Assembly: GCF_000504305.1 (NCBI RefSeq)
Contig: NZ_KI632512.1
Span: 2,942,220 to 3,006,219, forward strand
Length of the DNA stretch: 64,000 bases
Direction: 5' to 3'
From: Nitratidesulfovibrio termitidis HI1
GTDB lineage: Bacteria; Desulfobacterota; Desulfovibrionia; Desulfovibrionales; Desulfovibrionaceae
Shown here in pieces: positions 5,169 to 52,254 of this stretch (positions are counted from its first letter, which is position 1; each line of letters begins with the position of its first letter). The notes beneath the pieces were generated by a model. That model saw nothing but the letters and a program-made list of their open reading frames with translations, was not told the origin of the DNA and did no database searches. Both the position numbers and the translations under genes were made by a program.

Positions 5169-6857
5169 CTATTGTTCCACGTACAGGTAGCGCTTGATCT
5201 TGTGGGTGGGCGTTTTCTCGAAGGGTTCGGTCTGCTCGATGACCTTGTGCAGCCGCGCGAAGGTGGACACCTTGGCGTTTACGTCGTTGCGCAATTCTTC
5301 CAGCAGGGCGGCCACCTTTTCGCGGGCCTTGACGGCGGGCAGGCCGCCGAATTCCTCGTCCAGCCGCGCGTAGTCCAGGTGGATGCGCGCCGCCAGCCTG
5401 CCGTCCAGCTGGAACACCAGCGATTCCATCACGTACGGCGACTGCTGGATGACCGCCTCCACCTCTTCGGGGTAGATATTTTCGCCGCTGGGCCCCACGA
5501 TGACGTTCTTCAGCCTGCCCTTGATGTACAGGTAGCCGTCGCGGTCGAATTTGCCCAGGTCGCCGGTGCGGAACCAGCCGTCGTCGGTGAAGACGGAGGC
5601 GGTGATTTCCGGCGCCTTGGCGTATTCGCGCATCACGTTGGGGCCGCGCACCAGTATTTCGCCCTCGCCGGTGGCCGGGTCGGGCGCGTCGATGCGCACC
5701 TCCACCCCGGTCAGCGGCCAGCCGGTGGCGGTCAGGCGGGTGTCGGCAGGGCCGCAGCCCGCAACCAGGGGCGACGTTTCGGTCAGGCCGTAGCCGATGG
5801 CGTACGGAAAGCCCGCCTCGCGCAGAAAGCGTTCCACGTCGGGCGCGATGGCCGCTCCGCCGATGCAGAAGATGCGCAGCGCGCCGCCAAAGGTTTGCAG
5901 CAGCTTCTTGCCCGCCATCGCGTGCAGTTTGCGCCGCACGAAGGGCAGCCCGTACAGCCGCCGCTTCAGCCTGGTATCGGTGAACTTGGGCAGCACGGCG
6001 GACTTGAATATCTTTTCGATGACCAGGGGCACGGACAACATGGCCGTGGGCCGCACCTGGGCCAGGGCGGGCAGCAGGGCGCGCGCCGTGGGCGGCTTGT
6101 CCATGTAGTGCACGTGCGCGCCGTTCAGCACCGGCAGCACCAGCCCCAGCGTGCATTCGTAGGTGTGCGACAGGGGCAGGATGGACAGCATGCGGTCGCC
6201 GGGGGCAATGCGCACGATGCTTTTCACCGCGTCGGCGTCCCATACGATGTTGCGGTGGGTCAGCACCACGCCCTTGGAATGGCCGGTGGTGCCGGAGGTG
6301 TAGATGATGGCCGCCACGTCGTCCTCGCCCGGCTCTTCCACGGCCAGGTGGGTGAAGCGCATGGCCTTGTCGCGCAGGCGGCGGAATTCACGCAGGCCGC
6401 GCTCCTTCAGTTCGCGCAGCTTGTCGCGCGTGGCGCCCTGTTGCACGGGATGGAAATTTTCTATCTGGATGAGCTCCGGCGGAGTGTCGAACTGGCCGTC
6501 CTCCAGCTTGGGGAACAGCCGCTCGGAGACCAGCACCACCTTGGATTCCGAGTGGCGGATGATGTGGTGCACCGCATCCGCATGGAATTCCGGCAGGATG
6601 GGCACGGCAATGGCGCCCATGGCGGTAATGGCGAAATAGGCGATGCCCCAGTTGGGCATGCTTTCGGACAGGATGGCCACCCGGTCGCCGCGCGCCACGC
6701 CCTGTTCCGCCAGCAGGGCGGACACCGTGGTGGCGTGTTCGAGCAGTTCGCGGAAGGTTACCGGTGTGCCGCCGATCTGCGACAGCGCGGGCTGGTCGGC
6801 GTACAGTTCGGCGCTGCGCTCCAGCACCCGCCTGAGGGTAAGCGTCTGCAACTCCAT
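5169..6857 (-). CDS. Long-chain fatty acid-CoA ligase (AMP-forming)
   Basis: The 562-residue enzyme belongs to the ANL adenylate-forming superfamily and should activate a fatty or related carboxylic acid with ATP and then CoA. Visible motifs in order are the phosphate loop YTSGTTGHSKG near residue 181, the A5-type motif GYGLTETSP near 325, the GWFRTGDLG motif near 405 and the C-terminal catalytic-lysine region PTHKIKRYLY near 550. Length is typical. The start at 6857 is set by the strong GAAGGAG ribosome site 7 bases upstream; an ATG 13 codons earlier lacks one. The divergent neighbour is a Dabb-domain gene. The chain length of the substrate cannot be told from the sequence. Confidence 0.9.
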   Translation of the reverse strand: MELQTLTLRRVLERSAELYADQPALSQIGGTPVTFRELLEHATTVSALLAEQGVARGDRVAILSESMPNWGIAYFAITAMGAIAVPILPEFHADAVHHIIRHSESKVVLVSERLFPKLEDGQFDTPPELIQIENFHPVQQGATRDKLRELKERGLREFRRLRDKAMRFTHLAVEEPGEDDVAAIIYTSGTTGHSKGVVLTHRNIVWDADAVKSIVRIAPGDRMLSILPLSHTYECTLGLVLPVLNGAHVHYMDKPPTARALLPALAQVRPTAMLSVPLVIEKIFKSAVLPKFTDTRLKRRLYGLPFVRRKLHAMAGKKLLQTFGGALRIFCIGGAAIAPDVERFLREAGFPYAIGYGLTETSPLVAGCGPADTRLTATGWPLTGVEVRIDAPDPATGEGEILVRGPNVMREYAKAPEITASVFTDDGWFRTGDLGKFDRDGYLYIKGRLKNVIVGPSGENIYPEEVEAVIQQSPYVMESLVFQLDGRLAARIHLDYARLDEEFGGLPAVKAREKVAALLEELRNDVNAKVSTFARLHKVIEQTEPFEKTPTHKIKRYLYVEQ

Positions 6858-38479: not shown

Positions 38480-40213
38480 TTATTCGCGGTTGCCGGGCAC
38501 GCTGGCATGCCACCAGCCGGTCATTGAAGCGGGCCTTGCGTATGGGGAGAAGTCCCAGGCCGCAAGAATTTCGTCCATGTCGGGAGGCAGGGAATCCGGA
38601 TGTTGTCGGTCGTTGGTGTAGTGCCAGTTCCGGGGGGGAGCGTCGTTGTTGCGGTTGTCGTGGAAGAAGGCGTCCACCCTTCCAGAAGGGGCCAGGACGA
38701 TGGCCCCGTATTCCATGGGCTGCCGATCGAATGTGCCCCCGCAGGCAAGGCTGCCAGTGCTGGTGCGTGTGCAACTTGCCAGTAGGTCGCGTAATTGCAG
38801 GTAAAGAGGGGGCGGCAGGATGCCCGCCAACTGGGCGGCCACGCCGGGCATGGTGTAGACGGTGTCAGCCGGAAGACCGTCAAGATGCGCAAGCCCGGTA
38901 AAGGGCCGCATCGGTGCCCCTGCCCGGTGAGCCGGACCGGGGAGGCTGTTAAAATACACATAGGCCGGGTATTCGGGGCCGTCATCGTTCGTGGGCGCAG
39001 GGGGGACGAGGCCGTTGCTGAACGGGGCGCGCCATGTCTCACAGGCGGGCTGAGAATCCGGGCAGGTGGAGACGGTCAGCACGTCGTTTTCATTGTACCA
39101 TTCCCGGTGGAGCGAACCTGCAACCGTGCCGTGTTCTCCGTTGCTGGCAGCGTACGTGCCGGTGAAGACCGCAGGGCCTTCTTCGGATTGCCGCGCGGTG
39201 ACATCGAACAGCCATGTACGGTTCTTGGCGTCGCCAGCCATGGTCCAGCGCGTGGTGGAGGTGGCAGACACTGGGCGCCTGCCTTGCCAGAAGGCAAGAG
39301 CCGTCCAGTCCGGAGCGGAGGCAGGTGATGGCGGGGTAACTGCCTTTACCCTTGGGGCACTGGCGTGCAGCCACGTTGTTGCGGACAGGACGAGGGGCGG
39401 CCAACCGTCGAAATCCCAGATATCCACCAGTTCATTCAGGTCCGGGGGTAGCGAGTCCGGATGCTGCCGGTCATTGGTATAGTGCCAAGCAAGGTTGCGG
39501 ATGCGCCCATTGTCGCGTGAACCGTAGAAGAACACATCCACCCTGCCGTATGGGGCGACAAGCAGCGCCCCATACAACACCTGTTGCCGGTTGAAATGGC
39601 CGCCGCAGGCAATGCCGCCTCTGCTGGTCCGGGCGCACTGTCCTTCCATTTCCTGAAGCAGCAGAAAATGCGGCGGGGGGAGGATGTACGCCAGTTGAGC
39701 GGCAACACCGGGGATGGTGTTGAAGTCCCTTCCGCCATGCTCGAAGAATTCGTCCATGCCGGAGAACTGCGTTTGAGAAGGCGGCTCCCCTGCGTCAGCG
39801 GCGGCAGATGGGGGCGCAGCAGGACGAAAATCCGGAAAGGGCGGCATGGGGTGGGTTGCATCCGGGGAGTAGCGTATACAGGCGGGTGCGTTCCTGGGGC
39901 ACATGTATCCGTCTGTTGCGGATACACCGGCATGCCACTTTGGTATGTCCCAGAAGACAACGGGAATGGGGCTTTCGTTCGCGGGCGTGTATGTTCCGCT
40001 GTATACGCCGCACCTGTCTTCCGTCTGCTTCGACATGACGGAGAGGCCGGGGGCAAAAGTTCCGGCAGGCATCCTTGCGGAGTTCCATTCCCGTATGATG
40101 GTCGGCACATGCGGGGTGGAAACGTTCAGGCGGTCACGCGCGGGCGCCGTGGTGGGAAAAAGGCAGTGCAGCAGGAAGACGATGCCGAGCAGGCGGGCGA
40201 GGGCATGGGGCAT
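38480..40213 (-). CDS. Exported two-unit protein, candidate immunity to lysozyme-like Rhs toxin
   Basis: The 577-residue protein has a signal peptide (ARLLGIVFLLHCLFPTTAPA). It contains the same unit twice (about residues 60-280 and 340-570): a beta segment (GTYTPANE, GTYAASNGE), a CPxxxxAC pair, then MPGVAAQLAGILPPP, a CGG turn, an APSGRVDxFF strand and WHYTNDRQHPDSLPPD. The second half of each unit recalls Ivy-type lysozyme inhibitors (cysteine loop followed by a VLxSPxG strand), but this is by eye only. It directly follows a lysozyme-like toxin-tip fragment, as its paralogue at 42094 follows a full toxin. Its last 50 codons are nearly identical in DNA to those of that paralogue. Confidence 0.72.
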   Translation of the reverse strand: MPHALARLLGIVFLLHCLFPTTAPARDRLNVSTPHVPTIIREWNSARMPAGTFAPGLSVMSKQTEDRCGVYSGTYTPANESPIPVVFWDIPKWHAGVSATDGYMCPRNAPACIRYSPDATHPMPPFPDFRPAAPPSAAADAGEPPSQTQFSGMDEFFEHGGRDFNTIPGVAAQLAYILPPPHFLLLQEMEGQCARTSRGGIACGGHFNRQQVLYGALLVAPYGRVDVFFYGSRDNGRIRNLAWHYTNDRQHPDSLPPDLNELVDIWDFDGWPPLVLSATTWLHASAPRVKAVTPPSPASAPDWTALAFWQGRRPVSATSTTRWTMAGDAKNRTWLFDVTARQSEEGPAVFTGTYAASNGEHGTVAGSLHREWYNENDVLTVSTCPDSQPACETWRAPFSNGLVPPAPTNDDGPEYPAYVYFNSLPGPAHRAGAPMRPFTGLAHLDGLPADTVYTMPGVAAQLAGILPPPLYLQLRDLLASCTRTSTGSLACGGTFDRQPMEYGAIVLAPSGRVDAFFHDNRNNDAPPRNWHYTNDRQHPDSLPPDMDEILAAWDFSPYARPASMTGWWHASVPGNRE

Positions 40214-40297
40214 GGGGTACCGCTTCGCTGGTTGAGGCACCGCGCGGAAGGGGAGCCGGTATCCGCGCGGCGCGCTTTGTTTTGCGTACGCCTTTTC

Positions 40298-40658: not shown

Positions 40659-41096
40659 ATGGGGGCTGTCGTGAAAAGGTTCAAGTACAATGCTTTGATG
40701 TTTCAACGTGCCACAATAGTATTGCTTGTTCTTGTTGATCATTTCGTGTGGTATTTTGCAGGATTTTATAATGATGTGAATTCGTATTATATAGTAGCAG
40801 TTGAACTCCTACGCATAGCTGCGATAGTTTTCGCGTTTTTGTATAAAGACAATTGCGGTATTGGGAAAATTCTTACAGGAATGATTCTATATTCGTTTTT
40901 TCTGGCATTCGTAAACTGGTATGGAATTAGCAATTCATATTATGGGCTGCACAAACGCACCGTGACAAATATGTTATATTTTAAAAAATCACCAGAGATA
41001 GAGTTTGAAAATTTATGGCCATCTTTTTTTGCATGTGTTTATCTTCAAGTCATATACCTCGCATATCGATATGGAGAAAAGAAAGGCGTAAAATAA
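40659..41096 (+). CDS. Small multi-pass membrane protein, candidate immunity (paralogue 1)
   Basis: The 145-residue protein has about four hydrophobic helices and is encoded by strongly AT-rich DNA. It is homologous to the product at 49529: VWYFAGFYND aligns with FWHFAGIFAA, and MILYSFFLAFVN with MVYSLFMFFVS, followed in both by Lys-Arg and a final helix with Cys. Both genes converge on an Rhs toxin tip of the same class with a hairpin between. The start is uncertain: ATG at 40659 has a weak site, and a GTG at 40671 follows a G-rich one. Immunity to a membrane-acting or imported toxin is inference from this recurrent pairing. Confidence 0.75.
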   Translation: MGAVVKRFKYNALMFQRATIVLLVLVDHFVWYFAGFYNDVNSYYIVAVELLRIAAIVFAFLYKDNCGIGKILTGMILYSFFLAFVNWYGISNSYYGLHKRTVTNMLYFKKSPEIEFENLWPSFFACVYLQVIYLAYRYGEKKGVK

Positions 41097-41099
41097 ATA

Positions 41100-41126
41100 T
41101 GGCCACCTTCCGCTAGAAGGTGGCCA
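41100..41126. terminator. Bidirectional terminator between membrane protein and Rhs fragment
   Basis: TGGCCACCTTC and GAAGGTGGCCA form a perfect 11-bp stem with loop CGCTA, exactly between two convergent stop codons 36 bp apart. AT-rich sequence on the left would give a T-run for minus-strand transcription. Confidence 0.88.
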
Positions 41127-41131
41127 CGGCA

Positions 41132-41983
41132 TTACTTGTCGACAAATTTGCCGTTTCCCGCGTCTCTGGGATGCTTTGCCGGATCCCATTCCTTACTTTG
41201 CGATTGCGGGCGGTCAGCTTTGTCCTTTTCTCGTCTTTCTGCGATCTTTTCAAAGGCGTAGCTAATCGGTTGAAAATGGTCGGCTGCCAACGTCCCCGTG
41301 GCGAACCCGCGTGCGCGGGAACCCGCCTCCTCCTGCATTTTGGCGATGCCTTCCTTCTTTTCCTTGCTTCCGTATGGGTATGACCACCACGGGCGCAGGC
41401 GCTTCAAGATGCCCTCTCCCTCCAGCCCCAGCGGGTCGAAGGCGCTGACCGGGTCGTCCACGCAATAGTCGTAGGGGTCGTGGTCGCCGCCGGTGTCGCC
41501 CAGCGGGTCGGGCGCGGTGAAGCGTCCGGTGCGCGGGTCGTAGTCGCGAAAGCCGAAGCGCACGAGGCCGGTGTGCCGGTCCACCAGCCCCCCGGCAAAG
41601 CCCAGCGGCAGGAAGAAGTACGGGCAGGTGTCCAGCAGCGGGTTGCCGAAGCTGTCGTATTCCATGCGCTTCACCACGCGGCCATCCGGGGCCAGCAGCG
41701 CCTTTGGCGTGCCCACCTGGTCGCACCCGATGCGGAAGGTGACGGAATGCTGCGGCGTGGCGGGTTCCCCGGCCTTGCGGAAGATGGACGGGTCCAGCAG
41801 GTTGCCGTCCAGGCTGTCCAGCGCGGGGCCGCGCACGGTGACCGCCTCTGGCACGCGGCCCCCGCCGTAATGAAAGGTGTAGTCCGAGCCGGTGCGGTGG
41901 TCGCGGAAGCGGGCCAGGCGCAGCGGGTCGAGCCACTGGTATTCCTCGCTGGGCGCGTGGTTGCGCAGCACCATGAAGGGCAT
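41132..41983 (-). CDS. N-terminally truncated Rhs core with RPWWSYPYGS-type toxin tip
   Basis: From an internal ATG (MPFMVLRNHAPSEEY) this 283-residue frame contains the second half of the Rhs core (RFGFRDYDPRTGRFTAPDPL and the cleavage-type end FDPLGL near residue 190), then a tip with LRPWWSYPYGSKEKKEGIAK and a C-terminus ending WDPAKHPRDAGNGKFVDK. The frame upstream reaches a stop within 90 bp, where Rhs sequence is joined to a junction repeat at about 42022. It is therefore an orphan Rhs-CT, probably silent unless recombined onto an intact N-terminus. Its tip shares the RPWWSYPYGS block with the Rhs gene at 50005 but diverges after it. Confidence 0.8.
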   Translation of the reverse strand: MPFMVLRNHAPSEEYQWLDPLRLARFRDHRTGSDYTFHYGGGRVPEAVTVRGPALDSLDGNLLDPSIFRKAGEPATPQHSVTFRIGCDQVGTPKALLAPDGRVVKRMEYDSFGNPLLDTCPYFFLPLGFAGGLVDRHTGLVRFGFRDYDPRTGRFTAPDPLGDTGGDHDPYDYCVDDPVSAFDPLGLEGEGILKRLRPWWSYPYGSKEKKEGIAKMQEEAGSRARGFATGTLAADHFQPISYAFEKIAERREKDKADRPQSQSKEWDPAKHPRDAGNGKFVDK

Positions 41984-42093: not shown

Positions 42094-43842
42094 TTATTCG
42101 CGGTTGCCGGGCACGCTGGCATGCCACCAGCCGGTCATTGAAGCGGGCCTTGCGTATGGGGAGAAGTCCCAGGCCGCAAGAACTTCGTCCATGTCGGGGG
42201 GCAGGGAATCCGGATGTTGCCGGTCGTTGGTGTAGTGCCATGAGGCCACCGGCCCATCGGGGGACGGATTATGAAAAAAGACATGGATGATGCCGGTGGG
42301 GCGCAGCAGGACTGCGGCATAAGGCATTTGTTCATGCTGGGCAAAGCTTCCGCCGCAGGAGAGAGAGCCGCTTTCGAGCATAGTGCATTCGGCGTCAAGG
42401 CGTTGCATTAGCGCTAAGTGTGGTGGCGGCAGGATGTCCGCCAATTGCTCGACTACTCCGGGGACCGCGAAGATGGCGTTGACCCATCGGCCATCAAGGC
42501 GTTCCAAGTCGGGCAGGGGGCGAACGGGTGGGGACGTCCATTGGGCTTTTTCTGGGGTACTGCTCATGTACACATGGGAAGGATACTGGGGGCCGGAGAA
42601 ATTCTGGGTCTGGGGCGGGGCAAGATCGTTGGTGATTTCCGTCCGCCACGGAGTGCATACGGATTCGGTAGATGGGCAGGCATAAATGTCGACCAGGTCG
42701 ACTTCGGAGTCCCAGTCTTTCAGGATCGAGCCAGTGACCGGGACGTTTTCTCCGGTGCTGTCCGTATAGGAACCGGAGAAAGATGCCGTGCCGTCCGGGG
42801 TTTGTCTGGCGACGACATCGAAGCGGACTTCTCCGGATTTTACATCTCCAGAGAGAGTCCATCGAGCCGTGAACATTGGCGGAGATGGGGGAAACACCTG
42901 TATGCCGGGATTCACCTGCGCTTTCACGGAGACAGCAGGGAGACTGGGCGATACGGCGTTTACGTGCAACCAGCGAGTGGCAGAGGTGTCAAGCGGTGGC
43001 CAGCCATCGAAATCCCATGCCTGTATCAGTTCCTCCATGTCGGGCGGGAGTGATTCCGGACGATTTCTGTCTGTCGAGTAGTGCCAGGCAAGATTCCGGA
43101 TTCGCCCGTTGTTCCGCGAACCGTAGAAGAAGACGTCAATCTTCCCTGTGGGCGCAACGACAACGGCTCCGTACAGGATATGCTGTCGTTCAAAGTAGCC
43201 GCCACAGACGATGCTGCCCAGGCTGGTCATGGAGCACTGGGCCTGAAGGTCCTGCAATAGTAGAAAATGCGGCGGTGGCAGGACGTTTGCCAGTTGGGCT
43301 GTGAGCCCTGGCAAGGTGTTGATGGTCCATGCGGGTTGCCCGTGCAGGCGTGCGAGTCCGGGATAGGGGGGAGGCGTTTGGGGTGACCAGGCAGGTTTGG
43401 GCGGAAATGGGGTCTTGGCCGTATCGTTACGCAGTGTCTCCGTTACGATGTACGGCACCCTCCCGTCCGGGGAGGATTCCTGCGCATAGGATTCTGCTTC
43501 AAAGAACGCACACGGTTGCGTTGTGATGGGACAGATATAGCCTGATACCATTGGAGGTGATGCGTACCACATTGGGGTATACCATCCCGCCACAGGTGCA
43601 GAAGCTCCTGTGGCGTCCGTGTATGTTCCGACATATACGGCGCTGCTGTCATCCGCAGTTTTCGCCATGACGTCGAGGAAGGCATCCTGGCCACCAGGAT
43701 GCACCGTGTACGCCCAATGATGTACCGTTGTGGATACGTTGGGTGCAACGACGTTATGCTTGCGGCTTCCCATGGCGGTACATGGCCAGACAAGGATAGC
43801 CGCAAGGCAGAGCGAAAGCGCGTGGAGGAAAATGCGGAGCAT
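42094..43842 (-). CDS. Exported two-unit protein, candidate immunity partner of lysozyme-like Rhs
   Basis: The 582-residue protein has a signal peptide (LHALSLCLAAILVWPCTAMG) and two homologous units. Each unit has a GTYTDATG/GSYTDSTGE strand, a Cys pair (CPITTQPC, CPSTESVC), then LPGLTAQLANVLPPPH or VPGVVEQLADILPPPH, a CGG loop, a VVVAPTGKIDVFF or VLLRPTGIIHVFF strand and WHY(S/T)xDR. It starts 69 bp after the stop of the Rhs toxin at 43912 on the same strand, the standard toxin-then-immunity order, and would reach the periplasm where a lysozyme acts. Resemblance to Ivy inhibitors is suggestive only. Paralogues are at 38480 and 47133. Confidence 0.75.
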   Translation of the reverse strand: MLRIFLHALSLCLAAILVWPCTAMGSRKHNVVAPNVSTTVHHWAYTVHPGGQDAFLDVMAKTADDSSAVYVGTYTDATGASAPVAGWYTPMWYASPPMVSGYICPITTQPCAFFEAESYAQESSPDGRVPYIVTETLRNDTAKTPFPPKPAWSPQTPPPYPGLARLHGQPAWTINTLPGLTAQLANVLPPPHFLLLQDLQAQCSMTSLGSIVCGGYFERQHILYGAVVVAPTGKIDVFFYGSRNNGRIRNLAWHYSTDRNRPESLPPDMEELIQAWDFDGWPPLDTSATRWLHVNAVSPSLPAVSVKAQVNPGIQVFPPSPPMFTARWTLSGDVKSGEVRFDVVARQTPDGTASFSGSYTDSTGENVPVTGSILKDWDSEVDLVDIYACPSTESVCTPWRTEITNDLAPPQTQNFSGPQYPSHVYMSSTPEKAQWTSPPVRPLPDLERLDGRWVNAIFAVPGVVEQLADILPPPHLALMQRLDAECTMLESGSLSCGGSFAQHEQMPYAAVLLRPTGIIHVFFHNPSPDGPVASWHYTNDRQHPDSLPPDMDEVLAAWDFSPYARPASMTGWWHASVPGNRE

Positions 43843-43911: not shown

Positions 43912-46539
43912 CTATTTCTTTTGGCCTGCCCGAGGTATTTCGTCAAGCAGCTTGGCTTCAACGTGTCTTCGTGATGAGAATCCATCGTTGCAAGTCCGTA
44001 GCGCGTGGCTGGCGGAGCCCCAGTCATGAGCTTTTATGGCATCCCAGACAGGCTTCAGTTTTCCAGATGCCATGCCGCCTACACCATATTGATATGCTCC
44101 GGAACTCAGTACCGTCTGTGCCTGGATGGGGAGATTGTCGAAGCTGCCGCCTTCATCGGCTGAAGGAGTTTCTTTGTCAAAACGTTGCCGTGTAGCGTCC
44201 TGCCTTTTTTCTATGGCTATGCGTGATAGTGTATAGGCCTGCTCTCCCGTCAGCCGCGGATAGGTTCCAGTCTCGACAACGTAGCGCTCAAGTGCTTTTT
44301 GGGCTTGCCCTCTGTTTAGTTGCGCGAATTGTGCGAGCATTCTTGATGAGGTATCGCCATCAGGCGAGTTGATGCGGCGTTTGTATTCGGCAATGTCCGC
44401 GTGTGTCATATGCTGTGAGTCTACGCCAAGCCCAAAGGCAAGTGAGCTATTACCTGTGGAAAAGCTTGGTGTTGGATTTTCCCAGTTGCCACTTTCCAGG
44501 CTTCCCTCAAGAAAGGTCAGGGTTGCATACAAATGGCCGATGGGGTCGCTTTCAAGATGGTTTTGCTTGATGCGGTCCTTAAGCAAGTCATATTTTTTTT
44601 GACCGATTTTTTCAGGTGCAGTTTGCGGGGAAGGGGTGGGCTGCCCCGAATCGTTACTGGCCATCAACAGGTTTTCGGCATACGGCGATCTGCCGTCATT
44701 GTAGTGCGGCAAGGTGCGGATTTCTGCTCGCCCCGAGCCGCCGCGTCCCAGCGGCGGGGTGTAGCCTTCCGAGGGCCGGGGGCGCTGTTCGGGATAGAGC
44801 CGGGAGTCCGGAGGCTGCTCGTCGTTCAGTAGCTGCTGGCCGGATCTGCCGGTGGGGAGGCCAAGGATGAGTTCATCGCCACGTCTTGGGCCGAACGGCT
44901 TGAGAATCACTTCGCCAGGGTAAATGCCGGGGCGTACCCGTGGGGGATGCGTCAGGCTGCCCTCCGGCAGAGGGAGCACGGGCTGGCGGTGTTCGAGCGT
45001 CATGGCTCCACCGCCATGGGAGAAGGTGAACGTGCCGTCCGGGTTGCGTGGGTGTTTTGATTCGTCCCACCCCTGACCGATGATGGCTTCCCCGATGAGC
45101 CCCAACGGGTCGAAGGCGCTGACCGGGTCGTCCACGCAATAGTCGTAGGGGTCGTGGTCACCGCCGGTGTCGCCCAGGGGGTCGGGCGCGGTGAAGCGTC
45201 CGGTGCGCGGGTCGTAGTCGCGAAAGCCGAAGCGCACGAGGCCGGTGTGCCGGTCCGTCAGCCCCCCGGCAAAGCCCAGCGGCAGGAAGAAGTACGGGCA
45301 GGTGTCCAGCAGCGGGTTGCCGAAGCTGTCGTATTCCATGCGCTTCACCACCTTGCCGTCCGGGTCCATCAGGACCTTTACCGTGCCCACCTGGTCGCGT
45401 CCGATGCGGAAGGTGACGGAGCGCGGCGGTGGGGCGGCCTCCCCGTCCTTGCGGAAGATGGACAGGTCCAGCAGGTTGCCGTCCAGGTTGTCCAGCGCCG
45501 GGCCGCATACGGTGACGGCCTCGGGCACGCGGTCGCCGCCGTAATGAAAGGTGTAGTCCGAGCCGGTGCGGTGATCGCGGAAGCGGGCCAGGCGCAACGG
45601 ATCGAGCCACTGGTATTCCTCGCTGGGCGCGTGGTTGCGCAGCACCATGAAGGGCATGCCGTTGTCGCCGAAGCGGTAGCGGATGATGTCGCCCCCGGGC
45701 AGCACCACCGAATCGAGAGCCACGGGCGCAAGCTGGTCATGGAGATCATGGGGATGATGGGGATGATGAGGGGCGTGGGGACGGTAGGGGTCGGGGGAGG
45801 CAGAGGGTGCGCCCCCGGCGGCGTTGCCCCCATTTGCATAGTAAAACCACGTGCTGGAGCGCCCTTCCTCCCGGCAGCGCAGCGTGCCGTCCGGGGCGTA
45901 CATGTAGCGCGCCCGGCCCGCGCGCACGAGGCGGCCCGTGTTGTCATAGGCAAAGGCGCGCTCCGTCTCCATCAGCCGCAGCGCGTCGCGCGACATGCCG
46001 GGCAGCGGGTTCACCCTTGCCGTGATGCGCTGGCCCGCCGTGTTGTAGGTGTAGCGTTCCGCCCCCTGGCCGTCGCGGCGCACCTCGGTCAGGTGGCCGC
46101 GTTCGTCGTGGGTGTAGTCGTAGCTGGCGGCGCGCCCGCCGCAGCGTTCCTGTTTGGCGCGCAGCCTGCCGTCGGGCGAGAAGGCGCACTGCACGTCCAG
46201 CGCGGGGGGGATGGCGCCGGACTGGGGAGCGGTGGCAGAGGCGGCGGACCCGTCCGTCCCGCCGGGGGCACCCTCGGCGCGGGAATGGGGCGTGTGGGGT
46301 GCGGGCATGGCGAAAGCTCCGGAAGCGGGGGGAGCCGCCGGGAATGCGTCCGCGCCGTACCCCGGCCCGGCAGGCACAGTCCCTCCGACAGGCACTGCCC
46401 CTCCGGCGGGCGCGGCCCGCTCGTCGCGGGGGCGCTTGGCGAATACCACGGTGCGCAAAAAGTCTTCGGTGGACATGGCCTGGGGTGAACGCTGGGCAGG
46501 GGCGCGACGGGATGCGCGCCCGCGTGTGGATGCGGACAT
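43912..46539 (-). CDS. Short Rhs protein with T4-lysozyme-like C-terminal toxin
   Basis: The 875-residue protein starts at MSASTRG (AAAGGAAA upstream), with no signal peptide, PAAR or TcdB-like region. A Pro/Ala/Gly-rich segment leads to only a few YD-type repeats (YDYTHDERGHLTEV, YTYNTAGQR, FAYDNTGRL). The Rhs core ends with DPRTGRFTAPDPLG and FDPLGL near residue 520. The variable tip opens with GWDESKHPRNPDGTF. Its last 200 residues resemble T4/pesticin-type lysozyme: a candidate catalytic Glu in TFLEGSLES, then SSLAFGLGVDSQHMT aligned with the TIGIGH motif, and QTVLSSGAYQYG with KLKPVWDAIKAHDW. The tip would cut peptidoglycan. The next gene encodes an exported candidate immunity protein. 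Confidence 0.85.
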   Translation of the reverse strand: MSASTRGRASRRAPAQRSPQAMSTEDFLRTVVFAKRPRDERAAPAGGAVPVGGTVPAGPGYGADAFPAAPPASGAFAMPAPHTPHSRAEGAPGGTDGSAASATAPQSGAIPPALDVQCAFSPDGRLRAKQERCGGRAASYDYTHDERGHLTEVRRDGQGAERYTYNTAGQRITARVNPLPGMSRDALRLMETERAFAYDNTGRLVRAGRARYMYAPDGTLRCREEGRSSTWFYYANGGNAAGGAPSASPDPYRPHAPHHPHHPHDLHDQLAPVALDSVVLPGGDIIRYRFGDNGMPFMVLRNHAPSEEYQWLDPLRLARFRDHRTGSDYTFHYGGDRVPEAVTVCGPALDNLDGNLLDLSIFRKDGEAAPPPRSVTFRIGRDQVGTVKVLMDPDGKVVKRMEYDSFGNPLLDTCPYFFLPLGFAGGLTDRHTGLVRFGFRDYDPRTGRFTAPDPLGDTGGDHDPYDYCVDDPVSAFDPLGLIGEAIIGQGWDESKHPRNPDGTFTFSHGGGAMTLEHRQPVLPLPEGSLTHPPRVRPGIYPGEVILKPFGPRRGDELILGLPTGRSGQQLLNDEQPPDSRLYPEQRPRPSEGYTPPLGRGGSGRAEIRTLPHYNDGRSPYAENLLMASNDSGQPTPSPQTAPEKIGQKKYDLLKDRIKQNHLESDPIGHLYATLTFLEGSLESGNWENPTPSFSTGNSSLAFGLGVDSQHMTHADIAEYKRRINSPDGDTSSRMLAQFAQLNRGQAQKALERYVVETGTYPRLTGEQAYTLSRIAIEKRQDATRQRFDKETPSADEGGSFDNLPIQAQTVLSSGAYQYGVGGMASGKLKPVWDAIKAHDWGSASHALRTCNDGFSSRRHVEAKLLDEIPRAGQKK

Positions 46540-46670
46540 GGCATTTCCTTTGGTTGATGGTGGAAATGCCGCACCCGTAGCATGCGGGTTTCGGCTCGGC
46601 GTTGCCGCAACAGGGCCGCAGCGGGGTGGGGTGGCCGTCCGGAGGGTGTACGGCCATGGTGTTCCCCGGA
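46540..46670. repeat. Upstream region shared by both full Rhs genes (copy 1)
   Basis: This segment and 52255-52372 are nearly identical, including the ribosome site (AAAGGAAA on the minus strand) and an inverted GCATGCGGG/CCCGTAGCATGC-type motif. It presumably carries the Rhs promoter, so both toxins should be expressed alike. Confidence 0.8.
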
Positions 46671-47132: not shown

Positions 47133-49022
47133 TCAGGGGGCGGTGTTCCGCTTTTCGCCTGCTGGCATTGCGTCGGTCTTGGTTGGCAGTTCGCCCTCCG
47201 CCGCAAGCAGGGCGCTGACATGGACCCACGGAATCTTCGTGCCGCGCGGCACGCCCCACAGGCGCAGCACCTTGGGCAGGTGCTTGTTCATGTACCCGGT
47301 GAAGGTTGCGGCGTTGGCGGTGTCGTTGGTGTAGTGCCACGCGCGGGGAATGGGGTTGCCCGGCGCGGTGTGGACCAGCACATCCAGCCGTCCCTTGGGC
47401 GAGACGAACAGGGCCATGTTTATTTCCGGACGCTGCTCGCTCTCTCCCGCGCACACGGCTCCGTTGCGGTCGCCGAGGCAGTCGCCGGGGTGTCCCCCTG
47501 TCGGGGATTCCTTGCGGTTGGGGGCGAGGGGCAGCATGGCCATGGTGGAAACCAGTTCATACACGGCGGGCGGCAGCATGGCGGCAAGGCGCTGCGCGAA
47601 ACCGGGGATTTCCAGCAACTGGTCATGGTGGAAGAATTTCTGAAACTCCCGGAGCTTGACCGGCAACGGCGTCAAGAACGGGGGAGGGATGGACGGCGCA
47701 GCGTTTTCCTGCCCGGGCGTGGGTTCCGCACGGCACAGGCGGAACGGGAGTTCCTCGAGGGAGGGCGATTGCTGGGTGAAGCCTGCCCGCGAGCATTGCG
47801 TGTCAAAGGCATCGGCTTCCCATTGGATGCAGTTGTCGCCTTGCCCCGCGCACTCCCACAGGCGCATGCCCCGCGCGGAGGGCCACCACTGGCTGAACAC
47901 CCCGCCTGCAATGGCAACGGGAGGCTGCCCCTGCCGGGTGCTGACGCCCGACCCGGTGAAACGTCCTTCCTCGTCGGCCAGCCCGCGCATGGTCACGGTG
48001 ACGGCGGTGCCGTTGACGGTGCCGGTCCAGGTGCGTTGCTCGACCCGCACCGGCATGACCGGCGAGGCCGGGTTGGCCAGGGGGCTGTGCTGTGTGGACA
48101 GCGGGCCGAAGTGCAGCCACGGTGTGGCGGGGTGCATGGGGTCGCCGTCGCTGGGATGGAGTTCCCACAGTCGGACGGCCTCTTCGATATCCCCGGGCAT
48201 CCTGTCGATGTCTTCGGTATCGTTGGTGTAGTGCCATGCGATAGGGCATGTCGGCCAGCCCGCATCGAATATCAGAACGTCCACGCGCCCCTGCGGGCTT
48301 ACCGCCAAGGCCGCAGGGTGGGTGACCCAGCCGGAACTGTGGCCCGCGCAGAGCAGGTTGCCCTGCGAGCCCATGAAGCAGGCAGGGTCCTTGTCGCTGC
48401 TGAAGCCCGCGATGCCTTCGTAATGCTCCGGCGACAGCATGCCGACCAGTTGCTCCGCAAAGCCGGGCATGGAGTTGGGGGTCCAGTGCTGTGACTTGTC
48501 CGCAAAATGCTGTGGGGGCACAGGCAGCGGGCGCACGGGGGCCGGGACAGGCGGAGGAAGCGGGGTTTGCCGAATGAGGCGGAATGCGAATGTTGGTTCC
48601 TGTCCCCATGGGGCGCTGTCGATGTACCCGTCGTGGGCGCGGTAGTCCGTGGGCGTCTCCCATCCGACATGAGCATACCAGTTATGGCACTGTGCTTCAC
48701 CCGGAGGGCATTCCCTCAACCGCATGCCGGAGACCCACCACAGGGCGAAAATTCCGCCTGACACGCGGCGCGGCGGGCGGCCCTGCTGGGTGCAGACGCC
48801 GGACCCCACGAAACTGCCATCCTTGTTGGTCCAGCCGCGCATGGTCAGGGTGGCGGGTTCGTTGTCCAGCGTGCCTTCCCAGGTCCACTCCTCGAAGCGG
48901 AGCGGGAACGTCGGTTCCCGTGGGTCGGCAAGGGGCGCTTTTTCCCAGGCGGCCATGGCAAGACTTGCGGGCAGCCAGAGCGAAAGCAGAAGCGCGAACA
49001 GGAACGGGTGGGGGGTACGCAT
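47133..49022 (-). CDS. Exported two-unit protein, third candidate lysozyme-immunity paralogue
   Basis: The 629-residue protein has a signal peptide (FLFALLLSLWLPASLAMA). Two units are visible: FVGSGVCTQQGRPPRRVSGG and FTGSGVSTRQGQPPVAIAGG strands with Cys pairs, then MPGFAEQLVGMLSPEHY and IPGFAQRLAAMLPPAVY, LLCAGHS and AVCAGES loops, AVSPQGRVDVLIF and FVSPKGRLDVLV strands and WHYTNDT. It is diverged from its relatives at 42094 and 38480. The start at 49022 gives a clean signal peptide. A 24-codon remnant of a lysozyme-like toxin tip lies about 95 bp upstream, in the order seen for the intact pair. It is now an orphan immunity candidate. Confidence 0.72.
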   Translation of the reverse strand: MRTPHPFLFALLLSLWLPASLAMAAWEKAPLADPREPTFPLRFEEWTWEGTLDNEPATLTMRGWTNKDGSFVGSGVCTQQGRPPRRVSGGIFALWWVSGMRLRECPPGEAQCHNWYAHVGWETPTDYRAHDGYIDSAPWGQEPTFAFRLIRQTPLPPPVPAPVRPLPVPPQHFADKSQHWTPNSMPGFAEQLVGMLSPEHYEGIAGFSSDKDPACFMGSQGNLLCAGHSSGWVTHPAALAVSPQGRVDVLIFDAGWPTCPIAWHYTNDTEDIDRMPGDIEEAVRLWELHPSDGDPMHPATPWLHFGPLSTQHSPLANPASPVMPVRVEQRTWTGTVNGTAVTVTMRGLADEEGRFTGSGVSTRQGQPPVAIAGGVFSQWWPSARGMRLWECAGQGDNCIQWEADAFDTQCSRAGFTQQSPSLEELPFRLCRAEPTPGQENAAPSIPPPFLTPLPVKLREFQKFFHHDQLLEIPGFAQRLAAMLPPAVYELVSTMAMLPLAPNRKESPTGGHPGDCLGDRNGAVCAGESEQRPEINMALFVSPKGRLDVLVHTAPGNPIPRAWHYTNDTANAATFTGYMNKHLPKVLRLWGVPRGTKIPWVHVSALLAAEGELPTKTDAMPAGEKRNTAP

Positions 49023-49117
49023 GCTGAGCCTACCTTGGGTGCTGGAAGTTGCCAAGCCATATCGCATGTCCGGAGTGACTTCCAGCACCCGGTGGCACCC
49101 GCGCAGGTCGGGACGGG

Positions 49118-49528: not shown

Positions 49529-49930
49529 ATGGATTCTATGCGTAAAAAACGCATCGTCATTTTTGGTATTTTTTTTTCGGAATGTATCTTTTGGCATTTT
49601 GCAGGGATATTTGCCGCTGCACACGATGTATATGTGTATTTATTTGTTATTTTTTGGACAGTTGTGATGTGCGTGACAATTGTGAAGGCAAATGATGTAA
49701 AGAAGATGAATGGTGTTTTATCAGCTATAATGGTATATTCTTTGTTTATGTTTTTTGTTTCTGCAAACAGTATGGTTCCATATTATAAGATGAATCCGTC
49801 AAACCCTGTAGTAAATATATTTTTTTTCAAGCGTGATGCAGGTATTGTTTTGGGTTCAGGAGGTGCTCTTGAAGCGTTTGTGTGTTGTATATACCTAATT
49901 ATACTGTCTAAATTTTTTCGAACACAATAA
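49529..49930 (+). CDS. Small multi-pass membrane protein, candidate immunity (paralogue 2)
   Basis: The 133-residue protein has about four hydrophobic helices, including FGIFFSECIFWHFAGIF and MVYSLFMFFVS, with a final FVCCIYLIILSKFF. It is a clear paralogue of the product at 40659, in equally AT-rich DNA. TGGAGGATGTA gives a strong ribosome site. It converges on the Rhs gene ending at 50005, separated by a 19-bp perfect hairpin. Convergent placement is unusual for Rhs immunity genes, which normally follow the toxin on the same strand, but the repeated association supports the assignment. No enzyme motif is present. Confidence 0.78.
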   Translation: MDSMRKKRIVIFGIFFSECIFWHFAGIFAAAHDVYVYLFVIFWTVVMCVTIVKANDVKKMNGVLSAIMVYSLFMFFVSANSMVPYYKMNPSNPVVNIFFFKRDAGIVLGSGGALEAFVCCIYLIILSKFFRTQ

Positions 49931-49952
49931 CGTTCATAGAGTGATTGTTTTT

Positions 49953-50003
49953 AAAAGATGTCTGGCGTTGCGGAATGTTATGTAGCAACGCCAGACATCT
50001 TTT
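49953..50003. terminator. Long bidirectional terminator between membrane protein and Rhs gene
   Basis: AAAAGATGTCTGGCGTTGC pairs perfectly with GCAACGCCAGACATCTTTT over 19 bp around a 13-base loop. It sits between two convergent stops, with A/T runs at both edges so that it can act in both directions. Confidence 0.92.
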
Positions 50004-50004
50004 A

Positions 50005-52254
50005 TTATTTGCCGTTGGTTTTTCTTGTATTTTGTTTGGAATTATTTTTTTTCCTGTTTTTGATTTCACTTCTGATGTGATTTATTCCATAATCAAGAGC
50101 CATTTGTTGGCCATTTGGTGAATTAATACCAATGTTGTGAATTGTTTTTCCCCAGGTATTAAGTTCGGGCTTTAATGCATCTTGCATTTTCGCAATTCCT
50201 TCCTGTTTTTCTTCGCTGCCATATGGATATGACCACCACGGGCGTAATTGCTGTGCTATTTCGTGTACCTTTGTGTCTACGTTGTCTTTGGTCTTCTCGC
50301 TATCGGTATCCGGAGCATTTTTCCCGGACTCCATGGGTGTTGCATCAGCCAGCAACAGGTTGACGGCGTACGGCGCTCTTCCGTCACGGAAGTATGGTCT
50401 GTTACGGCTTATTCCTCGCTCTGGGCCGCCAGGACCCAGCGGCTGGAAGCCGTCCTTCGAAGGCATGGGGCGGTTTTCGGGGGAGAATCTTGAGTCTGGA
50501 GCCGGTTGGCCGTTCGGGGGCTGCACGCCGGGAGCGACGGGGAAGGTGCTGGCGATGAGTTCCTCGCCATGCCTTGGGCCGAACGGCCTGAGAAGCAGTT
50601 CGTCGGCGTAGATGCCGGGGTGTGCGCGCGAGGGGAGCGTCAGGCTGCCCCGCGGGAGAGACGGCATGGGGTGGCGATATTCGAGCGTCATGGCGTCGTC
50701 ACCGTCGGCGAAGGTGAACCTGCCGATGGCGTCGCGCGGGTGCTTGGATTCGTCCCATCCTCTGGCGGCAACGGATTCGCCGATGAGCCCCAGCGGGTCG
50801 AAGGCGCTGACCGGATCGTCCACGCAATAGTCGTAGGGGTCGTGGTCGCCGCCGGTGTCGCCCAGCGGGTCGGGCGCGGTGAAGCGTCCGGTGCGCGGGT
50901 CGTAGTCGCGAAAGCCGAAGCGCACGAGGCCGGTGTGCCGGTCCACCAGCCCCCCGGCGAAGCCCAGCGGCAGGAAGAAGTACGGGCAGGTGTCCAGCAG
51001 CGGGTTGCCGAAGCTGTCGTATTCCATGCGCTTCACCACGCGGCCATCGGGGTCCAGCAGCACTTTCGGTGTGCCCACCTGGTCGCACCCGATGCGGAAG
51101 GTGGCGGAACGCTGCGGCGCGGCGGGTTCCCCGTCCTTGCGGAAGATGGACAGGTCCAGCAGGCCCCCTTCCAGATTGTCGAGTGCCGGGCCGCATACGG
51201 TGACGGCCTCGGGCACGCGGTCGCCGCCGTAATGAAAGGTGTAGTCCGAGCCGGTGCGGTGGTCGCGGAAGCGGGCCAGGCGCAACGGGTCGAGCCACTG
51301 GTATTCCTCGCTGGGCGCGTGGTTGCGCAGCACCATGAAGGGTATGCCGTTATCGCCGAAGCGGTAGCGGATGATGTCTCCGCCGGGCAGCACCACCGAA
51401 TCGAGAGCCACGGGCGCAAGCTGGGCATGGGGATCATGGGGGTCATAGGGACTGTAGGGATCGGGGGAGGCATGGGGTGCGCCCCCGGCGGTGTTGTCTC
51501 CATTGTCCCCGTTGCCCCCGTTGGCCCCATTGCCATAATAAAACCATGTGCTGTTGCGCCCTTCCTCACGGCAGCGCAGCGTGCCGTCCGGGGCGTACAT
51601 GTAGCGCGCCCGGCCCGCGCGCACGAGGCGGCCCGTGCCATCGTAGGCAAAGGCGCGCTCCGTCTCCAGCATCCGCAGCGCGTCGCGCGACATGCCGGGC
51701 AGCGGGTTCACCCTTGCCGTGATGCGCTGGCCCGCCGTGTTGTAGGTGTAGCGTTCCGCCACCTGGCCGTCGCGGCGCACCTCGGTCAGGTGGCCGCGTT
51801 CGTCGTGGGTGTAGTCGTAGCTGGCGGCGCGCCCGCCGCAGCGTTCCTGTTTGGCGCGCAGCCTGCCGTCGGGCGAGAAGGCGCACTGCACGTCCAGCGC
51901 GGGGGGGATGTCGCCGGACTGGGGAGCGACGGCAGAGGCGGCAGCCCCGTCCGTCCCGCCGGGGGCACCCTCGGCGCGGGAATGGGGCGTGTGGGGTGCG
52001 GGCATGGCGAAAGCTCCGGAAGCGGGGGGAGCCGCCGGGAATGCGTCCGCGCCGTACCCCGGCCCGGCGGGTGCCGCCCTTCCGGCAGGCACAGTCCCTC
52101 CGACAGGCACTGCCCCTCCGGCGGGCGCGGCCCGCTCGTCGCGGGGCCGCTTGGCGAATACCACGGTGCGCAAAAAGTCTTCGGTGGACATGGCCTGGGG
52201 TGAACGCTGGGCAGGGGCGCGGCGGGATGCGCGCCCGCGTGTGGATGCGGACAT
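50005..52254 (-). CDS. Short Rhs protein with RPWWSYPYGS-type toxin tip
   Basis: The 749-residue protein starts at MSASTRG with the same AAAGGAAA site as its relative at 43912. About the first 510 residues are nearly identical to that protein (low-complexity start, few YD repeats, Rhs core ending TGRFTAPDPLG and FDPLGL). The tip begins GWDESKHPRDAIGRF, then diverges, and has LRPWWSYPYGSEEKQEGIAK about 75 residues from the end, followed by a lysine/asparagine-rich AT-coded terminus. The tip fold is not recognised. It lacks PAAR, VgrG and signal sequences. Its convergent neighbour at 49529 is the candidate immunity gene. Confidence 0.83.
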   Translation of the reverse strand: MSASTRGRASRRAPAQRSPQAMSTEDFLRTVVFAKRPRDERAAPAGGAVPVGGTVPAGRAAPAGPGYGADAFPAAPPASGAFAMPAPHTPHSRAEGAPGGTDGAAASAVAPQSGDIPPALDVQCAFSPDGRLRAKQERCGGRAASYDYTHDERGHLTEVRRDGQVAERYTYNTAGQRITARVNPLPGMSRDALRMLETERAFAYDGTGRLVRAGRARYMYAPDGTLRCREEGRNSTWFYYGNGANGGNGDNGDNTAGGAPHASPDPYSPYDPHDPHAQLAPVALDSVVLPGGDIIRYRFGDNGIPFMVLRNHAPSEEYQWLDPLRLARFRDHRTGSDYTFHYGGDRVPEAVTVCGPALDNLEGGLLDLSIFRKDGEPAAPQRSATFRIGCDQVGTPKVLLDPDGRVVKRMEYDSFGNPLLDTCPYFFLPLGFAGGLVDRHTGLVRFGFRDYDPRTGRFTAPDPLGDTGGDHDPYDYCVDDPVSAFDPLGLIGESVAARGWDESKHPRDAIGRFTFADGDDAMTLEYRHPMPSLPRGSLTLPSRAHPGIYADELLLRPFGPRHGEELIASTFPVAPGVQPPNGQPAPDSRFSPENRPMPSKDGFQPLGPGGPERGISRNRPYFRDGRAPYAVNLLLADATPMESGKNAPDTDSEKTKDNVDTKVHEIAQQLRPWWSYPYGSEEKQEGIAKMQDALKPELNTWGKTIHNIGINSPNGQQMALDYGINHIRSEIKNRKKNNSKQNTRKTNGK

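Follow-up and report, generated by a model that had tools for sequence, protein, structure and literature searches.

The immunity gene of ionophoric colicins lies, as a rule, on the opposite strand, converges on the toxin gene and has its own promoter (PMC9517006). The Rhs protein Tse5 of P. aeruginosa is a pore-forming T6SS effector, and its immunity protein Tsi5 has two predicted membrane segments (PMC9637101). CDI ionophores of the CdiA-CT EC93 group combine a variable C-terminus with polymorphic cognate membrane immunity proteins, and five-helix bundles are predicted for the group (PMC11630599). In these last two systems, membrane antidotes accompany membrane-acting tips (PMC9637101, PMC11630599). 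MuF toxins of temperate phages are polymorphic toxins encoded in the phage morphogenesis region (PMC5576092). Their MuF domain is N-terminal to the toxin. No paper on Rhs immunity in Desulfovibrio was found in a literature search.

The pairs described here were found in the window, which is the whole stretch of 64,000 nucleotides of Nitratidesulfovibrio termitidis HI1 that was analysed, and in related genomes. As in the pore-forming colicins, a small multi-helix protein of the inner membrane is the predicted antidote, and its gene, opposite in strand to that of the toxin, leaves space for a separate promoter, a resemblance that concerns only how the systems would work. Unlike the colicins, the pairs have no match to Pfam immunity or colicin families (0 of 13 members of the membrane family match the colicin and microcin immunity models at E 0.01) and no sequence or fold match in the PDB; the tip is 70-95 residues long without the large helical pore domain and hydrophobic hairpin of the colicins, and its chassis is a chromosomal Rhs or prophage protein. 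The C-terminal Rhs tip and the integral-membrane immunity protein are shared with Tse5/Tsi5, whereas here four helices are predicted, the genes converge and no T6SS sheath gene was found. Many Rhs effectors are delivered by a T6SS. The sheath gene VipA/TssB was absent from 11 genomes, including eight of the nine carriers (G024 was outside the search), while the E. coli control was matched; T6SS delivery of the Rhs tip was rejected on the basis of these eight carriers. A polymorphic toxin with a variable C-terminus and polymorphic immunity is also the pattern of the CDI ionophores, but the tips here are shorter, were modelled as two long helices at a pLDDT of 60 and are not carried by CdiA. The CDI ionophore domain, at the end of CdiA, is characterised by a glycine zipper. 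Carriage in a phage morphogenesis region recalls the MuF toxins; however, no MuF domain was reported by Pfam, and the prophage-borne tip is part of a protein of about 112 residues encoded after an internal virion protein. The window Rhs ORFs have the core and variable C-terminal domain that define Rhs polymorphic toxins, and the carriers in the second genus (g17) are without an Rhs core.

The reading favoured here, with a probability of about two in three, is that each pair consists of a polymorphic antibacterial toxin and its cognate immunity protein, with a predicted membrane-active tip and a predicted integral-membrane antidote.

Convergent pairs in the window and the genome

The two pairs of the window consist of the following features.

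49529-49930, + strand: membrane protein a, 133 aa; predicted four-helix integral membrane immunity protein (AlphaFold2 and family membership)
49952-50004, no strand: inverted repeat a, 20-bp perfect with a 13-nt loop, between both stops; probable terminator for both convergent genes
50005-52254, - strand: Rhs protein a, 749 aa, intact, with Rhs-associated core (TIGR03696 6.8e-17, over the cut-off)
50005-50268, - strand: toxin-like tip a, last 87 aa of Rhs protein a, VHEIAQQLRPWWSYPYGSEEKQEGIAKMQ...
40659-41096, + strand: membrane protein b, 145 aa; paralogue of membrane protein a
41100-41126, no strand: inverted repeat b, 11-bp perfect, between both stops; probable terminator
41132-41983, - strand: Rhs fragment b, 283 aa; end of the core plus tip, N-terminus absent; displaced (orphan) tip
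41132-41419, - strand: toxin-like tip b, last 95 aa of Rhs fragment b, GEGILKRLRPWWSYPYGSKEKKEGIAKMQ...WDPAKHPRDAGNGKFVDK

The earlier note had described two tail-to-tail pairs of an Rhs tip and an AT-rich membrane-protein gene in this island, and both were recovered at these positions. The sequence LRPWWSYPYGS.EK.EGIAKMQ is common to the Rhs ORFs 50005-52254 and 41132-41983, which includes the block LRPWWSYPYGSxEKxEGIAK reported before, and TIGR03696 scores above its cut-off in both ORFs. The stops are separated by 74 nt in pair a (49529-49930 / 50005-52254) and by 35 nt in pair b (40659-41096 / 41132-41983). The membrane genes, at 133 and 145 residues as first described, have a GC content of 33-35% in a window of 67%, and within Rhs protein a the tip has 37% compared with 71% for the core. 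A direct two-sequence comparison of membrane proteins a and b gives merely 23% identity (E 4e-6), but intermediates in the genome and its relatives join them into one family, which upholds their proposed paralogy.

The 11-bp repeat (41100-41110/41116-41126) is as long as first reported; the other, given as 19 bp, measures 20 bp (49952-49971/49985-50004), and both are perfect. A folding energy of -37 kcal/mol was obtained for the intergenic stretch of pair a with 12 nt on each side. The hairpins are probably ordinary terminators. A role as a special or fixed element of the module was rejected, since their length and sequence vary and they are missing at the 13-nt gaps of the type d pairs, including the fourth pair of this genome. 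No sigma-70-like site was found on the + strand upstream of 49529 in a promoter scan, so it is the gene order that suggests that the antidote has its own promoter. The earlier note was reasonable in calling convergence unusual for Rhs immunity, although a classical parallel exists in the pore-forming colicins (PMC9517006).

What had been counted as two pairs in the window proved to be four in the genome, with membrane proteins of about 135-150 aa. The additional pairs lie near G000:C1:1944864-1946413 and 2459650-2460900, about 1 Mb and 0.5 Mb away. The tip block gave three places when searched against its own genome; each membrane protein as query gave the same three, and the second one added a weak fourth, which was confirmed by an HMM built from three membrane proteins. 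Next to this fourth membrane gene lies an Rhs fragment whose tip, NVAPFWAPYGSKEKQRVQEIL, is divergent. Two of the Rhs carriers of the four pairs are fragments and a third is frameshifted.

Five Rhs cores, 89-100% identical and with differing tips, were found in the genome. Four of them have this tip and the membrane partner. The fifth (43912-46551, - strand) is without a membrane partner and ends in a pesticin-like tip (Pfam Pesticin E 2.3e-4, below the curated cut-off). Its downstream neighbour is on the same strand, so that convergence goes with the membrane antidote here.

That neighbour region holds a gene for a large secreted protein directly behind the pesticin-like Rhs (42094-43842, - strand), which could be its immunity protein. 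It belongs to a family of about 580-650 aa, apparently secreted and repeatedly found beside Rhs genes (47133-49091, 42094-43842 and 38480-40240, - strand; L031:5853-7859; L035:1197-3032), with internal repeats of WHYTND...MP/LPPD motifs and no match in Pfam or NCBIfam. One such gene lies downstream of each window Rhs gene on the same strand, and related genes flank the fourth pair and its counterpart in G024, as would be expected if the large secreted proteins (47133-49091, 42094-43842, 38480-40240) were the true immunity proteins and the membrane protein had some other function, for example export of the tip. This assignment is very unlikely: no copy is present in the stretches examined at pair c, G025, G023, G024a or g17, where the membrane protein is always found; the pesticin-like tip is a more plausible partner for the secreted proteins; and neither polymorphism nor tandem arrays are expected of export genes.

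In two species, frame changes at different places interrupt the Rhs carrier of the third pair type (L004:7344-9322 and L032:5447-7097, both - strand), and the tip and membrane gene are still open in both. Two small proteins, the first a predicted lipoprotein, are encoded beside the third pair (L004:5510-5986 and 6048-6386, both - strand). Their relatives again lie beside the pair in G025, and they are possibly orphan immunity genes for other toxins.

Distribution of the tip and the membrane protein

An HMM for the membrane protein and another for the tip were built only from sequences of this genome and run separately against 288 genomes of the family. Nine genomes were matched by each, and the two sets are identical. 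If genomes were independent, which they are not, such agreement would arise by chance about once in 3e16 (288 choose 9). Four carriers belong to the genus of the window (g1), where presence is patchy (4 of 8 listed members have neither gene), and five to the second genus, g17. The two genes are side by side in all nine, in 14 pairs that are tail to tail without exception (14/14). An extra gene, IS30-like by its sequence, lies between tip and membrane gene in G042, with the convergent orientation unchanged. All 20 membrane genes found (19 intact, one broken by a stop) are tail to tail with a tip or in tandem beside one, so the homologues do not occur mostly away from tips. No intact tip without a membrane partner was seen in the genomes searched.

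Broader HMMs were applied to a phylum sample of 395 genomes; two were matched, the same two by both models and already known as carriers, and no new carrier appeared in this sample. A scan of genome contigs with the pattern [RS]PWWxYPYG gave three Desulfovibrio-labelled records, and the named records among the carriers bear the same label; two Streptomyces matches were judged to be chance frames. The g17 membrane protein was unmatched in plasmid and phage collections, as was the g17 tip protein in the phage collection. Among viral contigs the tip alone was found, in two proviruses that end near it; the membrane proteins gave no match there, and their 13-member alignment is too divergent for a pattern search.

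The dN/dS ratios of the membrane genes, about 0.1-0.5, indicate purifying selection. The pairing is more than chance because such selection acts on these genes and because the tip and membrane-protein HMMs, searched independently, agree on 9 of 288 genomes. The functional link proposed from the repeated pairing is supported, and it is a link to the tip and not to Rhs as such: the Rhs protein with the pesticin-like tip is without the partner, and the non-Rhs tip of g17 has it. Tip and membrane gene do travel together on AT-rich segments, as a cassette passenger (a hitch-hiker, or a lysis or holin gene) with no functional tie to the tip also would. Such a passenger is hardly credible, however, given that selection keeps the gene, that the partner is retained, always tail to tail, across the change from Rhs to prophage chassis, and that the membrane gene has been duplicated independently of the tip.

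The g17 tip is carried by a protein of about 112 residues (MGGGRGGGFFAGTDGWRASEAFARGTLVAAA...LRPWWSYPYGHPEK...) whose gene still faces the membrane gene. Its N-terminus was found only in the five g17 genomes, and no Pfam or PHROG family was matched by the protein. The gene stands at the end of a podovirus-like prophage that encodes terminase, head-tail adaptor, major head and tail proteins, and it comes after the genes for an internal virion protein and a DUF4417 protein (the Pfam match was made on L059, a relative of G044 among the viral contigs). In five related Desulfovibrio species this prophage (L061-L063, L036-L040) has one and the same conserved chromosomal gene as its neighbour, which would be expected of an element that is old and inherited vertically. 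The gene transfer agent Dd1 is known from D. desulfuricans, and a gene transfer agent or a killing particle is possible for the g17 element. The tip gene of G044 (L040:7667-8036, - strand) has a change of reading frame in a run rich in A, immediately after PYGHPKKNKK, by frameshift mutation, phase variation or assembly error.

Distances between tip C-termini and between their proximal partners are correlated (Mantel r 0.86 for all pairs, 0.96 in g1, and 0.68 with p 0.026 in g17), a co-variation to which shared descent of the linked cassette contributes, since cassettes inherited as a unit co-vary without direct contact. Extra membrane genes in tandem are present in G024 and in four g17 genomes (G044, G054, G092 and G093), and a broken copy is present in G023. 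The distal copy of G093 is 84% identical to the proximal copy of G054, compared with 66-75% to the proximal copies of other species. G023 has an open Rhs pair and, behind it, a displaced Rhs fragment that has its own pair. Tandem copies and displaced fragments are the orphan-module pattern of polymorphic toxin loci. Exclusive pairing, co-variation and tandem extra copies fit toxin and immunity.

Predicted structures and proposed mode of action

The tip comprises the last 70-95 residues, in which a conserved block of about 25 residues with the consensus [LV][RA]P[WF]W..PYG[SH].EK is followed by 30-70 variable residues. The tips are net basic and have moderate amphipathic stretches. No hydrophobic hairpin, long hydrophobic helix or strongly hydrophobic segment was found in them, and no enzyme-like conserved residues beyond the W/P/Y/G block. 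The two helices modelled for tip a are of low confidence. A PDB sequence search with the tips returned only noise, and the family has no match in Pfam, NCBIfam, PHROG or the PDB. A pore is not evident, because the tips are without a hydrophobic hairpin or long hydrophobic helix and their fold is poorly predicted.

The motif WD[EP][SA]KHPRD..G[RK]F directly follows the Rhs core in some tips and stands at the extreme C-terminus of others (41135-41190 in the window; about 50700-50760 in Rhs protein a). A shortened form, DHPRD...GKF, ends the fourth tip. The motif is possibly a recombination seam or a small functional element.

Membrane protein a was modelled by AlphaFold2 with helices at residues 3-24, 33-52, 57-81 and 110-131 (mean pLDDT 82). 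The loop 82-109 is of low confidence in the model and belongs to the regions that vary most between g17 paralogues. The N-terminus, the second loop and the C-terminus contain basic residues, so that by the positive-inside rule both ends would lie inside and the variable loop outside. The family has no match in Pfam, NCBIfam, PHROGs, PDB sequences or PDB folds; DUF5964, DUF2568 and DUF2678 were rejected as its identity, each being a weak match to one member.

In the proposed mechanism the toxin would be the last 70-95 residues of the Rhs protein, that is, the conserved block and the variable, mostly basic and probably helical stretch, and the immunity protein would be the small four-helix integral membrane protein from its own convergent gene. 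Since the predicted place of the antidote is the inner membrane and no enzyme-like motif is seen in the tip, the tip would most likely attack a rival at or within this membrane; depolarisation is one example of such an action. The membrane protein would block its cognate tip in the inner membrane, as for pore-forming colicins and CDI ionophores. Toxicity, immunity, the membrane target and delivery into other cells are what we infer for the pair.

Small membrane proteins can exclude related phages in phage settings. The g17 tip gene stands at a podovirus-like prophage end behind an internal virion (ejection) protein, and the tips are without clear membrane-spanning segments; both observations suit a tip that hits another envelope or cytoplasmic target and a membrane protein that bars its entry at the inner membrane, like a superinfection-exclusion protein. 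The Rhs chassis shows no evident phage injection, yet keeps the same partner, and the tips have no enzyme-like conserved residues except the W/P/Y/G block, which makes a barred entry unlikely. A small toxin that would act at the inner membrane, with its membrane-embedded antidote, is the most economical reading and the one retained.

Implications for Desulfovibrio and its relatives

The pairs would add a toxin family and an immunity family that are nameless in the libraries searched. They may also represent a novel class of toxins, very small and directed at membranes, with a convergent four-helix antidote, shared by Rhs proteins and a vertically kept, podovirus-like Desulfovibrio element and maybe borne by particles, which would be a weapon against kin without the antidote; this broader proposal is speculative and rather doubtful at present. 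In the reference survey of polymorphic toxins, genes on the same strand were taken as operons and genes in head-to-head order were examined (PMC3482391), and an antidote that lies tail to tail with its Rhs tip has an order that operon-based surveys could miss. If membrane antidotes of Rhs toxins are convergent as in the ionophoric colicins, while the pesticin-like Rhs tip of this genome has its likely partner on the same strand, the way in which uncharacterised tips act may be predictable from gene order itself. The cassette occurs both on Rhs proteins and on a prophage protein, which offers a natural experiment on the part played by the delivery chassis.
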